From contig JAOAEQ010000006.1 in assembly GCA_026416715.1 (NCBI GenBank), positions 74,061-138,060 of the forward strand: a DNA stretch of 64,000 nucleotides, in the 5' to 3' direction. Position numbers and translations under genes: made by a program. Positions 5,180 to 47,053 of this stretch are shown piece by piece. Each line of letters begins with the position of its first letter. Within the stretch, counting starts at the first letter, position 1. The notes below the pieces were generated by a model that had not been told where the DNA came from, did not search any database, and saw only the letters and a program-made list of their open reading frames with translations. Origin of the DNA: a bacterium (lineage in GTDB: Bacteria > UBP4 > UBA4092 > JAOAEQ01).

Positions 5180-6010
5180 TTATCGAATTGGGATTCGCGC
5201 TACTTCCGCGGTAACCAGGTCTCCGTCAACTACTTTCTTCCCTTGAGTATATGCAGATAACAACGAATATGATGCTAACTTGCAGATATCTCGCGCTAAT
5301 CCATTCGTTTCGCTATGAATAACATTGATCGCATCATCGGTAAAAATTGTTTCCCCTTCCGGAAGGCCAGCTTTCTTCAATCGGAATTCAATCAATCCTT
5401 TTGTATCTTCGGGACCAAGCGGGTTTAATATATATGACATTGCTACCCGTTGCCGGAAGTTTTTAAATCGTGGCGTACTGATTTTGTTTAAGAATTCTAA
5501 CTGCGCAAAGATAACCACATTGATCAATTTCTGGTCAACCGTTTCCATATTGAGTAATTCTCGTACCCGAAGGAGCTGGGTCGGGGTCATTTCCTGTCCT
5601 TCATCAATAATCAGCACGATCTTCTTTTTATTTTCGAATCCTTCGCGTTCAACGAATTTGAATAATCCATCTTCTAGCCGTAATAGAGTAGCTCTGCCAT
5701 TTAACGATGGAATTCCGAACGCATTACTGATTTTTTCTAGAAACGACATTTCTGATTTCGCTCGCGGCTGTCGAATAACCGCAAATAATGTATTTCCATC
5801 CTGAATCAGTTTATCGATGAGAAGATTACTTAAACTGGTTTTTCCGGTTCCGGCGTCTCCCAGCGTAACACATAATCCGCTGTTTAACGATAATGAAACG
5901 AGTATTCGCGATAAACATTCTTCATGCTCCGGACTCATATATAAAAACTCGACACTCGGTCCGCTCTGAAACGGCTCTTTTGTTAACCCAAAAAATTCAT
6001 AATATGCCAT
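5180..6010 (-). CDS. ExeA/GspA-like AAA ATPase
   Basis: 276 residues. The start YEFFGLTKEPF is the hallmark N-terminus of the ExeA/MshM group of AAA ATPases. Walker A is GDAGTGKT at 51-58, Walker B is IVLIIDE at 131-137 followed by GQEM, and a sensor-like VVIFAQLE lies near 165. Unlike full-length ExeA there is no C-terminal transmembrane segment or peptidoglycan-binding domain, so this is the ATPase part alone. Family members power or assemble type II secretion, MSHA-type pili or transposition. The start at 6010 is supported by GGGAGGA about 10 nt upstream. The only neighbour is the TPR gene, so the machine it serves is not shown here. Confidence 0.8.
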   Translation of the reverse strand: MAYYEFFGLTKEPFQSGPSVEFLYMSPEHEECLSRILVSLSLNSGLCVTLGDAGTGKTSLSNLLIDKLIQDGNTLFAVIRQPRAKSEMSFLEKISNAFGIPSLNGRATLLRLEDGLFKFVEREGFENKKKIVLIIDEGQEMTPTQLLRVRELLNMETVDQKLINVVIFAQLEFLNKISTPRFKNFRQRVAMSYILNPLGPEDTKGLIEFRLKKAGLPEGETIFTDDAINVIHSETNGLARDICKLASYSLLSAYTQGKKVVDGDLVTAEVARIPIR

Positions 6011-41019: not shown

Positions 41020-43269
41020 TTAATACTTCTCCAGTACTTGACCATATTGAACTTGAAAAATCGTCATACCTCTTGGGTTGTGATACACCGGAAGTAAGCT
41101 CGGGCTAGCGAGAAATAATTGAAATAACTCAAGTTCTGCAATAGACTTAAACCGCTGGCGGAAATAGGGGTAGTATAACCGCAGCTCTTTTTCGTTATAG
41201 AGGATATATTTCACTTGCAGTTCAGCGAGTTTCTCTTTAATCTGGTCAACGGTTTCCGACTGCTGGATAATCCGCAGGATTACCGGGGTATCAAAAAAAT
41301 CCGCACAATAATATGGCCGTTGGCAGTATAATGCCCGATATTCACCAATAAATAGGATTCGGTCGTCCGGCAGGGTCTTCTGGTTGACATATGTAAACAT
41401 CGGGTAATAATCGAGGTTCCGTGCAAGAAATGCTTCGTTCGATTCCATACCGATAATAAACGATAATGGATTATGGTATCGCGCTACCGTCTGAACCGTC
41501 CAGATAGCATTATAGACTAACATGATACCTAAAGTACCGAATAGTAAGTATCTCATACCTAACTTTTTTTCCGCAATCCGCATTTGATACAACGACCACG
41601 GTATCAGCGCGCTCAATAGCGGAAGTATCGGTTGCAAAAACCGATTATCACGGTAGGTAGCAGACCAGAATATGAAATAATAAATAGCGGTCAGAAGTAA
41701 GAGGTAAAATGTCAGGTTATTCTTCTTTTCGGAACAGTGCGAAGATATTTTCCTGCTGCATATAACGGCGTAGACTATTAACGGTAGGAATGCGAGGTAA
41801 ATAGGGCCAAGTTGCCAATCCCCGAAATTCACCGGATGCATTGCTGTTTTTGGTGGATTCATGGTCGCTCGCCAAGGGAGTTGAAATAATTCTATTATTC
41901 GATACCCCAGATTCTGCTGGTTCGCTTGAGCGAGCCAACCTTTTTCCTGAGCGTGAGCAGTATAATATTCGGCATTGAACTGGCTCCAATCAGTTCCGCC
42001 GAAAATACTATATCCCAGTGGGTAGACCGGATTGCCGGTATAGATATAATTTTTTATATACCAAGGAATCGCAATACCAGTAGTTAGTATCAAGCACAAG
42101 ATACTATGGTTTAAAATCTTTTTATAATCCTTACGTTGATAGAATAAGATTATTATCAATATACTCCATAAGAAAAACACCACGGCAACCATGGAATATT
42201 TTATTCCGAGCAAGAATCCGGTAACGATAGAAAATAAGTAGCATGTAGACTGAGGACAGAAGTTAGAGTTTTTTTCACTGGTTTCCGCCTTCTTGTTTCT
42301 AGCTCTTCCTGTGATACAAAGTGTATAGATTGCGATGAAAACATAAAAGGTTAATCCGCTCTCGATAAACGCCCAGGATGAAATAATCGGAATAAATGGA
42401 GTGCTGATATAAATCGCTACCGGAACGAGCGGGTTCGTGAACGGGGAAAATCGTTTCGTAAAACTATGGATTGCGATAGCGGTTAACACCAAAAAAAGCC
42501 AATGGATAAGTTTTGGTAGTATCGTGCCCGAAATTGCTAATCCGAGCGTATATAACGATTCGATGAGAAATGGAAAATTCGAAAACGCATTATAGGGAAC
42601 ATATACAATTCTATGTTTCCATAAATATTGTTGCGGTACTGCGAGATGATACCGGAGCGCGTCTGATTCGGTACACGGGGTTAACGAACTTAAAAACGAG
42701 AGAGAAAGAATAAACAGAATAAATATAGTGAGCGACTGATTGCGTTTTGTAAGTTTAATCTTCAATAATTTTTGCCAACATTTAGTAATCCAATGTTTTG
42801 TTTCTTGATAACTGAAAATTATTCCAAAGATGAGAAGGATAAACAGAACTTGATATCGCAAATGTCCAATTAAACCTAATCCAAAAAGCAATAGACTCAA
42901 CAGACCCAACCCTACGGCAACCGAAAAGATAACTTGTTCGGTATCATCAGACGTATCACTATCCGTATGCGATAAATTCATTAATAACCTATTATGGTCC
43001 TCAGTCGACGGACAGCCTGTGTTCCATCCGGATATATTTATTAAGGATAGCGTTTTCTTACCAAATCCATAAGCGATACTAAGTATAATGAGTAGATTAA
43101 CTATGGAAGTAAGTATGGAAAATAGGTTGGATAAGAATGTCTGCCATTGAAATAGACCAGGAAAGTTAACTCCCGCTAATATTGAACTAGGTATTATCGG
43201 ATATAAAGGATAGTAAAAAATAAATACTACGAACGCAAATAGAAAGCAAAGTAATAAAAGGAGTTTCAC
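41020..43269 (-). CDS. GT39/ArnT-like polytopic glycosyltransferase
   Basis: 749 residues with a GTG start at 43269 and about 12 membrane helices. SLTPCTESDALRYHLAVP after the central helices has the acidic loop expected in GT-C enzymes that use polyprenyl-phosphate sugars. A later segment, PWYIKNYIYTGNPVYP, is shared almost motif for motif with the gene at 44954. The C-terminal soluble part (about 615-749) is hydrophilic with Tyr/Arg-rich segments. It probably glycosylates lipid-linked or protein substrates on the outer face of the inner membrane. It is a paralogue of 44954-47053, and the two lie on opposite sides of dnaN and the origin. Confidence 0.7.
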   Translation of the reverse strand: MKLLLLLCFLFAFVVFIFYYPLYPIIPSSILAGVNFPGLFQWQTFLSNLFSILTSIVNLLIILSIAYGFGKKTLSLINISGWNTGCPSTEDHNRLLMNLSHTDSDTSDDTEQVIFSVAVGLGLLSLLLFGLGLIGHLRYQVLFILLIFGIIFSYQETKHWITKCWQKLLKIKLTKRNQSLTIFILFILSLSFLSSLTPCTESDALRYHLAVPQQYLWKHRIVYVPYNAFSNFPFLIESLYTLGLAISGTILPKLIHWLFLVLTAIAIHSFTKRFSPFTNPLVPVAIYISTPFIPIISSWAFIESGLTFYVFIAIYTLCITGRARNKKAETSEKNSNFCPQSTCYLFSIVTGFLLGIKYSMVAVVFFLWSILIIILFYQRKDYKKILNHSILCLILTTGIAIPWYIKNYIYTGNPVYPLGYSIFGGTDWSQFNAEYYTAHAQEKGWLAQANQQNLGYRIIELFQLPWRATMNPPKTAMHPVNFGDWQLGPIYLAFLPLIVYAVICSRKISSHCSEKKNNLTFYLLLLTAIYYFIFWSATYRDNRFLQPILPLLSALIPWSLYQMRIAEKKLGMRYLLFGTLGIMLVYNAIWTVQTVARYHNPLSFIIGMESNEAFLARNLDYYPMFTYVNQKTLPDDRILFIGEYRALYCQRPYYCADFFDTPVILRIIQQSETVDQIKEKLAELQVKYILYNEKELRLYYPYFRQRFKSIAELELFQLFLASPSLLPVYHNPRGMTIFQVQYGQVLEKY

Positions 43270-43408
43270 ATGAATGATTACGGAAAAAACTTTTTTATCT
43301 CAAATCTAAACTATGTGATAACAAAAGGAATAGAAAATGAAAAATCTTTCTACTATACAATATCTTTTTGTGGATACCCACTTGCCACTTACGGTTAACG
43401 TTTAGGTA

Positions 43409-44512
43409 TTAAGTAATTTTAATTGGCATAATAACGTTAATATAATTATCATCTCCAACAGGTTTAATGACTCCTGGGGTTAACGGCTGGTTAATTTCTA
43501 AACTCATTTCTTCCGCATCAATATTCTTTAAAATATCAATGAGATATTTCCCGTTAAACGCTATTTGGACTTCTTCACCGTCATACGTAACATTAAATTC
43601 ATCTTTTGCTTCTCCAATTTCAGGAGTGTTTGCTGAAACCTGGATACAATTCGGTTGAATGGTAAATTTTATCTGGTTGGTTTTTTCACTTGCAAGCACT
43701 GAAACTCGTCGAATCGCTTGTAATAACCGGGTTGATTTCATCCCGATTTTCTTTTCACAGAATTTTGGAATAACTTGTTCGTAGTTGGGAAATTGACCGT
43801 CAATTAATCGCGAGGTGACTAGACTATTTTCTGTTTTAAAAAATATTTGTGTTCCAGTGCTCGCGATTGTAATATTACCTTCTTCTCCTAAAATTGTCTG
43901 GAGTTCATTAATCGCTTTAATGGGAATAATTACCCCTATTTCATCTTTAATTTTATCTTCGACATTCCCTTTAATATACGCTAATCTTCGTCCGTCAGTA
44001 GCCACCATTCGAACCTCATTTCCCTTTGCCCAGAAATAGAGTCCATTTAAGACTTGCCTCATCTCTTCTAGGGATACCGCAAAACTTGTTTTTCTCACCA
44101 TACTTTTCCAAATCTTTTGGGGTAATTCAAACGCTCCGGTTTTAGGAAATACCGGTAAAACTGGAAAATCTTCTTTCGGCATACCTGATAAGGTAAACAC
44201 GGTTTTCTCGCATTCTATTTTAGCTATCGTATCTTCAGTGCTTATGATAACAGGCGCATCCGGTAGTTCTCGGACAATATCACTTAACTTTTTTGCTGGT
44301 AAGGTTATCCCGCCTTTTTCATTTACTTCTGCAGGAATTTCATATTCTACGCCAACATCAAGATCGGTTGCAGCTAATCGCAGTTTCTTCTCTTTATCTT
44401 TCGCTTCAACTAAAATATTTGATAGAATCGGCATAGCACTTTTAACACTTACCGCATTACTGACAATACCGACGCATTTCTGTAATTCTGATCTATCAAC
44501 AACAATTTTCAT
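43409..44512 (-). CDS. dnaN: DNA polymerase III beta sliding clamp
   Basis: 367 residues, the normal length, spanning three clamp domains (about 1-120, 128-245, 247-367). Typical signatures are LRLAATDLDVGVEYE, GNEVRMVATDGRRLAY and a C-terminal NYINVIMPI. The clamp encircles DNA and tethers polymerase III. GGAGG lies 10 bases before the ATG. A promoter at 44570-44599 reads into it. It borders the candidate origin, as dnaN does in many bacteria, but here without dnaA next to it. Confidence 0.96.
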   Translation of the reverse strand: MKIVVDRSELQKCVGIVSNAVSVKSAMPILSNILVEAKDKEKKLRLAATDLDVGVEYEIPAEVNEKGGITLPAKKLSDIVRELPDAPVIISTEDTIAKIECEKTVFTLSGMPKEDFPVLPVFPKTGAFELPQKIWKSMVRKTSFAVSLEEMRQVLNGLYFWAKGNEVRMVATDGRRLAYIKGNVEDKIKDEIGVIIPIKAINELQTILGEEGNITIASTGTQIFFKTENSLVTSRLIDGQFPNYEQVIPKFCEKKIGMKSTRLLQAIRRVSVLASEKTNQIKFTIQPNCIQVSANTPEIGEAKDEFNVTYDGEEVQIAFNGKYLIDILKNIDAEEMSLEINQPLTPGVIKPVGDDNYINVIMPIKIT

Positions 44513-44953
44513 AAATATTATCCTCCAAAAAAATATTCAAATCTTTATAACCTAATATTTGTAATAATAAATATACCTGTTAATTTGTGGATAGGTCAAG
44601 CAATAATATATAAATATATCATTATTTTCTGTGGATTAGCTATGAATTATTCTATTATTTCTATCCAGAGTGATTAACAGTTATTTTTAACGTAATAATC
44701 TTATTTCTATTATTCACTTATCAACAAACTTATCCACAAATAAATTGTGGATAAGTTAATAAACTATTATAATATATAGAGTTAATTACTTAATAGACAA
44801 TTTTATCGACCTGGGTGATACAATAAAACATTCATAAATTGTAGGTATATTTACCCTTGAGAAAACTAATAATTTATCCACATATCCACATACTTATCCA
44901 CAGGAAATCAATTTTTTATACATAACTGAATTAGGATAAGTTATCCCATTTTT
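44513..44953. other. oriC: candidate chromosomal replication origin (oriC)
   Basis: An A/T-rich gap of 441 bp between dnaN and a divergent gene. Perfect DnaA boxes (TTATCCACA or complement): 44730-44738 (+), 44746-44754 (-), 44874-44882 (+), 44894-44902 (+). One-mismatch boxes: 44586-44594 (-), 44630-44638 (-), 44718-44726 (+), 44882-44890 (+). The boxes at 44718, 44730 and 44746 form one cluster and those at 44874, 44882 and 44894 another. A/T-only stretches at about 44600-44628 and 44761-44795 are candidate unwinding elements. Gene direction changes here from leftward to rightward. Together this is strong for oriC, but initiation has not been shown. Confidence 0.85.
44570..44599 (-). promoter_or_regulatory. 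dnaN promoter overlapping a DnaA-box variant
   Basis: Minus strand: TTGACC (44599-44594), an 18-bp spacer and TATATT (44575-44570). A one-mismatch DnaA box (44586-44594) occupies the spacer next to the -35 element, so DnaA binding there could repress or tune dnaN. Confidence 0.55.
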
Positions 44954-47053
44954 ATGAGTATTTATACTCAAATTAAATCATTTTTATTTATCCTTCTTAT
45001 CTGTTGGTCAATTTTTATTGTTAGTTATTTTTATTATACCAATCTAGCGTTACTATATCTCTATATTAAGCTAGTAAAAATCATTATTTCCGGAGATTAT
45101 TACATTAATTTCAATAATATTTACTGGAAAGAAATATGGTTAGCAATCATCGGAATACTATTTTATACTTTTCCATTAACAATTATCTTTAAAGAAAAAA
45201 AGAAAAAAATATCTCCTCGCGCAATCACAATATCTTTCATCATCGGATTAGGAACGATTTCTGTTATTCTTGAATTATTAGGTATATTTCATTTTCTCCA
45301 TCGAAAAATTATTATCCTGGTATATCTTGTTCTCATTCTACTCTTTTTGCTCACCGCTAAAAAAAGAAAAACCACTATCTATTTTTCACAACTGACAGAA
45401 CAACTCGTAACCCATAAAATTTTCTATTCCTGTTGTCTCATCCTTATAATTTTAATAACTTCATTTACATTTTATCACGCATTGTTTTATCCGGAAACAT
45501 ACTGGGATTCGCTTATCTACTATCTTCATTATGGAAAAATGATATTTGAACAGAACGGTTTTCCGACGAGGGTATGCGCTCAAGTCGGACTCGGGCTTGG
45601 TGCAAACTATCCGCATTTATTCCCACTCATCGGAGGAACCTTATCGATTCTCTTTGGCGGATACTCCGATATCTTCGGTCAATTTATCGCGCCATTTGCC
45701 GGATTACTCGCAACGATTTTACTCTATTTTATTGCTCGAGAATTATTCCAATCGAAACTCGTTGCGATAACCACCGCGTTGTTATTTCGTAGCGTTCCGT
45801 TCGGTATAGCGTATTTCACCTATGCGACCGACTATGCGCTCGTTATGCTATTCACCGCAGGGTTCCTCTATACTTCCTTACAATATTTGCATACACGAAA
45901 GCAAACTTGGCTCTGGATAACTGGATTTATTGCTGCCATCCAGACCCATATCAATTATCTCGGCTGGATATTTTTCCCAGTGTTCGTATTGCTTTTGTTC
46001 CTGTCGAAAGAAAACATAAAAACGGTGTGTCTGGTTCTCTTGTTTTCTATACTGATCGCTATCCCGTGGTATCTTCGCAATTGGCTGGTTACCGGCAATC
46101 CAGTCTATGCATTCTTTCCCGAAATTTTCGGTGGCAAATATATTAATCGAGAAGTGCTTGCTTCTTGCTACCACGAATGGCGCGCTAACGGTATTGGCGT
46201 TCCCGGAGAAACAGTATTCAACCGAATTCTGTATACTCCGCAATTCTTTTTTTCCGACTGGCGATTCGCTCCGGTATTATTCGGGTTCGCGATACCAGGG
46301 ATTATCTTGGGATTGATACATAATCGGAACCGAACAGGTACCACTGCGAGTCGCGATAATCACTTTATTTATATTATAGTAACAGTTCTGGTTTTGGGCT
46401 TGGTCTACCATATAATAATTTCGCCATTCTATTTATATCAAATAGTATTTATTATTCCAGCAATTGCACTTCTATCTGGATATTTTGTTCGAGAAATTAG
46501 CGAAGAACCGAAGGCATACCCCCAATTGATTCTCGTTAGGAAAATCAGCAAAAAAATAGGGTTTATATTAGTTATTTTAGTTGGACTCGTTCCCGGACTT
46601 GCTATGAGCATCATGGGACATAAATATGCGAATCCCAATTTGATAGCCTTCCAACATCCAGGAATAAATCACCTGCAGTTTATGGAACTCGTTTATGGTG
46701 ATGCGGTTCCGCTCTGGCAATATATCAATAAGAACTTAAAAAATACGAAACTGTTAACCCATGATAACCGATACCATATGTATGATGATAGCATCACCAT
46801 CGTGCATCTGGATGATTGGGATATCCAGCACCTCTATACCGTTTCTAATATAGAAGATAAGCTGGATAAATTGCAACAGTTAGGTATCCAATATTACCTT
46901 TTTATCCCAAACGAAAGAAACCATCCGATTGTCAGCCGGCTTAATCTTCAGGAGCTTATCGATCATAACTATCTAATAGAAATATATCGTTCTGGTGAAC
47001 ATATTCTCTATCAATTCAACTATGCTCTTTTGGGAAAAAATAAAAAACTATAA
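44954..47053 (+). CDS. GT39/ArnT-like polytopic membrane protein
   Basis: 699 residues with 12 to 13 membrane helices. After the fourth helix the segment ETYWDSLIYYLHYGKMIFEQNGF has the acidic and aromatic loop of GT-C glycosyltransferases. SILIAIPWYLRNWLVTGNPV parallels the paralogue at 41020-43269. A hydrophilic C-terminal part (about 590-699) ends the protein. It likely uses polyprenyl-phosphate sugars at the outer face of the inner membrane. The next gene overlaps its end. The start is the first ATG after the origin; no Shine-Dalgarno is clear. Confidence 0.7.
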   Translation: MSIYTQIKSFLFILLICWSIFIVSYFYYTNLALLYLYIKLVKIIISGDYYINFNNIYWKEIWLAIIGILFYTFPLTIIFKEKKKKISPRAITISFIIGLGTISVILELLGIFHFLHRKIIILVYLVLILLFLLTAKKRKTTIYFSQLTEQLVTHKIFYSCCLILIILITSFTFYHALFYPETYWDSLIYYLHYGKMIFEQNGFPTRVCAQVGLGLGANYPHLFPLIGGTLSILFGGYSDIFGQFIAPFAGLLATILLYFIARELFQSKLVAITTALLFRSVPFGIAYFTYATDYALVMLFTAGFLYTSLQYLHTRKQTWLWITGFIAAIQTHINYLGWIFFPVFVLLLFLSKENIKTVCLVLLFSILIAIPWYLRNWLVTGNPVYAFFPEIFGGKYINREVLASCYHEWRANGIGVPGETVFNRILYTPQFFFSDWRFAPVLFGFAIPGIILGLIHNRNRTGTTASRDNHFIYIIVTVLVLGLVYHIIISPFYLYQIVFIIPAIALLSGYFVREISEEPKAYPQLILVRKISKKIGFILVILVGLVPGLAMSIMGHKYANPNLIAFQHPGINHLQFMELVYGDAVPLWQYINKNLKNTKLLTHDNRYHMYDDSITIVHLDDWDIQHLYTVSNIEDKLDKLQQLGIQYYLFIPNERNHPIVSRLNLQELIDHNYLIEIYRSGEHILYQFNYALLGKNKKL

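Follow-up and report, generated by a model that had tools for sequence, protein, structure and literature searches.

We predict with high confidence that a 441-bp intergenic gap beside dnaN is the single chromosomal origin of replication (oriC) of this bacterium, whose dnaA gene lies elsewhere. The gap is at positions 44513-44953 of the window (the whole 64-kb stretch of DNA that was analysed), has a G+C content of just 23%, and separates dnaN from the gene for a PMT_2-type glycosyltransferase. The prediction rests on a cluster of DnaA boxes that is unique in the genome, a minimum in predicted duplex stability, the divergent orientation of the flanking genes, the conservation of both the position and a 29-bp box module in another genome of the class, and a minimum in GC skew at the corresponding gap of that relative. 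The sequence-only reading had proposed a candidate oriC beside dnaN, and nearly all of the sequence-based tests uphold that proposal. If correct, our prediction fixes the replication origin, and hence the direction of replication, of a deep lineage with very few genomes.

The gap contains four perfect copies of the DnaA box TTATCCACA (at 44730, 44874, and 44894 on the plus strand and at 44746 on the minus strand) and four copies with one mismatch (at 44718 and 44882 on the plus strand and at 44586 and 44630 on the minus strand). Both of the minus-strand copies with a mismatch, CTATCCACA at 44586-44594 and TAATCCACA at 44630-44638, point toward dnaN. There are two tight groups of boxes, at 44718-44754 and 44874-44902, with 119 bp between them. 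Our box search thus recovered exactly the four perfect and four one-mismatch boxes of the sequence-only reading, which had also described the gap as A/T-rich, its length as 441 bp, and the two clusters as about 120 bp apart. When we resampled the gap with a Markov model (n = 5000), the mean was 0.008 perfect boxes and 0.24 boxes with one mismatch, and no resampled sequence had more than three boxes in total. The genome assembly (2.96 Mb in 64 contigs, and rated as 100% complete) contains 35 perfect boxes, of which 4 are in the gap, and nowhere else in the genome are perfect boxes found less than 1 kb apart. A box cluster that is above chance and unique in the genome is what is expected of a DnaA-dependent oriC. 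We found no Rfam match to a known RNA within 43000-46000.

In a pattern search, each group proved to contain one copy of a 29-bp module, in which three box-like 9-mers all point the same way. Copy A (TTATTCACTTATCAACAAACTTATCCACA; 44710-44738, plus strand) has three mismatches to the class consensus pattern, and a perfect box lies 7 bp beyond it in the inverted orientation (44746-44754, minus strand). Copy B (TTATCCACATATCCACATACTTATCCACA; 44874-44902, plus strand) is 164 bp from copy A and matches it at 25 of 29 positions.

The module is conserved in G001, which is the only other genome of the class among the 60 relatives that we sampled and which belongs to another family. The two gaps align poorly except for the module, TTATCCACATATC[C/A]ACATACTTATCCACA, where copy B and the relative are identical at 28 of 29 positions; the gap of G001 has one strict copy. 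With up to three mismatches allowed, the module was found only in the window genome and in G001 among 60 genomes and was not found in the 58 others. The conserved module is a small candidate DnaA-binding unit that can be tested.

The gene order is conserved as well. On contig C66 of G001, a gene for a large membrane protein and dnaN (both on the minus strand) are followed by a gap and then by a gene for a PMT_2-like glycosyltransferase on the plus strand. (The DnaN proteins of the two genomes are 56% identical.) This gap contains 6 of the 68 perfect boxes of that genome and is the densest site on the contig. Cumulative GC skew along C66 is lowest at 5851, about 125 bp past the last box (at 5726), with a left arm of only about 5 kb. 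To the right of the gap, the skew follows the replication strand (+0.148 for plus-strand genes and -0.132 for minus-strand genes), and in the four genes of the short left arm it is about zero.

An origin should also contain an A/T-rich element beside the boxes that is easily melted, and a nearest-neighbour scan of duplex stability over the whole window places one here, as far as predicted stability can tell. The least stable 50 bp in 64 kb are at 44756-44805, just past the box group of copy A, which makes this stretch the most likely DNA-unwinding element. The second-lowest 50 bp of the window (44526-44575) are an alternative unwinding site between the boxes and dnaN, and the two least stable 100-bp stretches of the window are within the gap as well. 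Boxes whose CACA end faces 44756-44805 fit the usual orientation of boxes toward the unwinding element, as exemplified by R1 of E. coli. In B. subtilis, the boxes nearest to the unwinding element must be correctly oriented (PMC6669920).

The basal unwinding system has been described as DnaA boxes, a spacer, and DnaA-trios, with at least three trios no farther than about 16 bp from a box (PMC8287927). In the gap of the window, we found only chance-level candidates for a DnaA-trio, and as 81% of shuffled sequences reach the best score, we dropped them. In the gap of G001, two tandem boxes (TTATCAACA-CTATCCACA) are followed by CTA ATT TTC CTA ATA ATT ATC (CTAATTTTCCTAATAATTATC), and 1.3% of shuffled sequences are as good. 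A very long run of DnaA-trios, resembling a textbook example, is present in the dnaA-dnaN gap of an outgroup genome, G039 (L017:1311-1375), beside an TTATTCACA box; it has up to 18 NTN triplets, many of which are CTA or TTA.

The identities of the flanking genes are as first read from the sequence. The dnaN gene (43409-44512, minus strand) encodes a DNA polymerase III beta clamp of 367 amino acids with all three of the sliding-clamp domains in Pfam, and the membrane glycosyltransferase (44954-47053, plus strand), whose place to the right of the origin is conserved in the class, matches PMT_2. Downstream of dnaN is a gene for a protein with multiple membrane spans (41020-43269, minus strand), which has a similar neighbour in G001. 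The product has no match in Pfam and is glycosyltransferase-like only by its position and appearance.

To the left of the gap (31.6-44.5 kb), ten successive open reading frames of at least 150 amino acids are all on the minus strand, and to the right (45.0-63.7 kb), most of the open reading frames of this size are on the plus strand. (Some short antisense reading frames in the list are probably spurious.) Because gene direction flips at the gap, replication forks leaving it would move in the direction of transcription on either side. However, when we ran the same test across the whole contig that contains the window (C6), a boundary at 46.5-47.1 kb of C6 scored higher than the gap, so the flip by itself does not prove that there is an origin.

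The sequence-only reading had also expected the cumulative GC skew to turn at about 44.7 kb. Within the window, the skew does have its minimum nearby, at 47.1 kb, which is about 2.3 kb from the gap, but the same contig has a second V at 46.4 kb of C6 whose depth is similar or slightly greater. This second V (G000:C6:46376, to the left of the window) coincides with a sharp flip in gene direction, without a cluster of DnaA boxes, and probably reflects coding-strand bias. Skew at third codon positions tracks the coding strand on C6 (0.124 for plus-strand genes and 0.155 for minus-strand genes), and the residual skew of leading and lagging strands differs little (0.14 vs. 0.07 within 45 kb). As only this small difference remains, GC skew is a weak witness in the window genome.

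The sequence-only reading further suggested that this lineage kept dnaN rather than dnaA at its origin, and both genomes of the class agree. In the window genome, a canonical dnaA (with domains I, III, and IV) is on another contig, C19, at about 26.5-28.0 kb. About 19 kb separate the gap from an end of C6, and about 27 kb separate dnaA from an end of C19; even with the two contigs abutting, the distance between dnaA and the gap would be no less than about 45 kb. In G001, dnaA is on contig C70 and is not beside dnaN. Both DnaA proteins have the box-binding domain IV (PF08299; 114.8 and 106.6 bits). The neighbours of dnaA are common to the two genomes, with a pseudopilin-like gene downstream and a gene resembling FAD amine oxidases upstream, which implies that dnaA had also reached its new position before the two families diverged. 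Just upstream of dnaA in the window genome, there is a group of DnaA boxes (G000:C19:28006-28091, or L004:10907-10992) that is absent in G001 and that plausibly serves the autoregulation of dnaA.

Could the true origin instead be upstream of dnaA on C19, near parS and ParB, with the gap beside dnaN serving as a promoter under DnaA control or as a titration site? Upstream of dnaA, about 450 bp hold one perfect box and three with one mismatch, and the two best parS-like sites (with 1 and 2 mismatches) are on the same contig, together with the only HTH_ParB protein that we found (C19:49626-51111, 22-23 kb from dnaA). However, the boxes at dnaA have a score of 5, as compared to 12 for the gap beside dnaN, so the better cluster is not beside dnaA. 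In G001, no box with one mismatch or less is found in the stretch of roughly 480 bp that precedes dnaA, and it is the gap beside dnaN that has a high score (16) and the skew minimum. There is no turn in GC skew at dnaA on C70 of G001, where both gene strands show the same top-strand skew along the contig. Given the weaker boxes at dnaA and their absence from G001, we rejected this explanation, which we consider very improbable.

As parS is normally near oriC, C19 may be a neighbour of C6 on the chromosome, or parS may have moved. (A parS close to the gap was considered and dropped: no site in the window has two or fewer mismatches, and a single site with three mismatches is at the level expected by chance.) A refinement of our main reading would be a wider bipartite origin, in which the gap beside dnaN is the unwinding site, the boxes upstream of dnaA form a regulatory sub-origin, and C6 and C19 are close together. 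This would account for the boxes in both regions and for the usual proximity of parS to oriC, and the distance between the gap and dnaA could be as little as about 45 kb. On the other hand, known bipartite origins flank one gene, G001 lacks the boxes upstream of dnaA, and the best pair of parS-like sites in G001 is on a third contig (C27) that has neither dnaN nor dnaA. We view the wider arrangement as improbable. The gap might also be nothing but the promoter region of dnaN and the glycosyltransferase, with DnaA boxes for the control of transcription; it does lie between divergent genes, as a divergent promoter region would, and DnaA does regulate promoters via its boxes. Yet eight boxes, modules that are identical at 28 of 29 positions across the class, the least stable DNA of the window, and uniqueness in the genome go beyond what a promoter needs, and the skew minimum of G001 is at its corresponding gap. 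We give this explanation almost no chance of being correct.

If the gap is indeed oriC, then we infer that DnaA, encoded elsewhere, would bind to the two 29-bp modules and to the inverted box. Oligomerisation of DnaA would then proceed toward 44756-44805 and melt this A/T-rich stretch, and helicase loading would give rise to a pair of divergent forks. The fork moving leftward would be co-directional with dnaN and the other minus-strand genes, and the rightward fork with the plus-strand genes.

In three outgroups that are among the best DnaN matches (G039, G025, and G032), dnaA is directly upstream of dnaN, which suggests that the joined state is ancestral. By this comparison, the ancestral origin probably had dnaA beside dnaN, and dnaA departed later. 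In the class's common ancestor, either dnaA would have moved out of a dnaA-oriC-dnaN arrangement or the origin would have moved away from dnaA together with dnaN. The two genes are apart in roughly a third of the 60 genomes sampled. We scored the boxes around dnaN and dnaA in 21 of these split genomes, including both members of the class (in one genome, no true dnaA was found). With a score that uses a single consensus and so misses origins with other types of boxes, a strong group of boxes at dnaN was seen only in the window genome (12) and in G001 (16), and the next best score was 3. In G028 (5) and G056 (6), by contrast, a moderate group is found at dnaA.

Cyanobacteria are already known to have an origin next to dnaN and apart from dnaA; this is their usual arrangement, and their box is TTTTCCACA (PMC4674748; PMC6323995). 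As in the oriC of Cyanothece ATCC 51142 and of most cyanobacterial species in DoriC, the gap in the window genome adjoins dnaN and has several boxes and an A/T-rich stretch, and in both genomes of the class dnaA is not adjacent. Unlike the cyanobacterial origins, it has a membrane glycosyltransferase as a neighbour and a paired 29-bp module of three boxes, and it belongs to a different and barely sampled lineage. Its perfect boxes are the common TTATCCACA and not the species-specific TTTTCCACA, so the arrangement is the same but this is not a cyanobacterial origin. The classical dnaA-oriC-dnaN arrangement (as in B. subtilis, C. difficile, and the three outgroups) shares the box consensus and the location of boxes and unwinding element 5' of dnaN; here, in contrast, dnaA is not adjacent and recF does not follow dnaN. 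The oriC of E. coli is tens of kb or more from dnaA and has arrays of perfect and weak boxes beside its unwinding element. The predicted origin resembles it in these respects, but in E. coli the origin lies apart from dnaN too, whereas here dnaN was kept. This is a second apparently independent case, and one outside of the cyanobacteria, of an origin that remained beside dnaN when dnaA departed; it leaves our general view of bacterial initiation unchanged.

Both genomes of the class also encode a second DnaA-type ATPase (G000:C4:112204-113727, plus strand, L005:9105-10628; and G001:C41, minus strand, L059:9340-10899). We know of no earlier description of this protein or of the paired 29-bp module, and when the literature was searched for MshEN in combination with DnaA, no paper that treats the fusion was found. 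A more speculative idea, which we consider unlikely, is that the origin of the class is built from a repeated module that serves as a preformed platform for DnaA oligomers and that, now that dnaA is elsewhere, this ATPase may act as an Hda-like switch to tune the use of the origin. The second ATPase is possibly an Hda-like regulator of DnaA. It has an N-terminal MshEN domain (of the c-di-GMP receptor type) and the AAA+ domain of DnaA (200-205 bits), without the DNA-binding domain IV. In the window genome, it also matches Hda_lid and is preceded by a gene that has the MshEN domain only.
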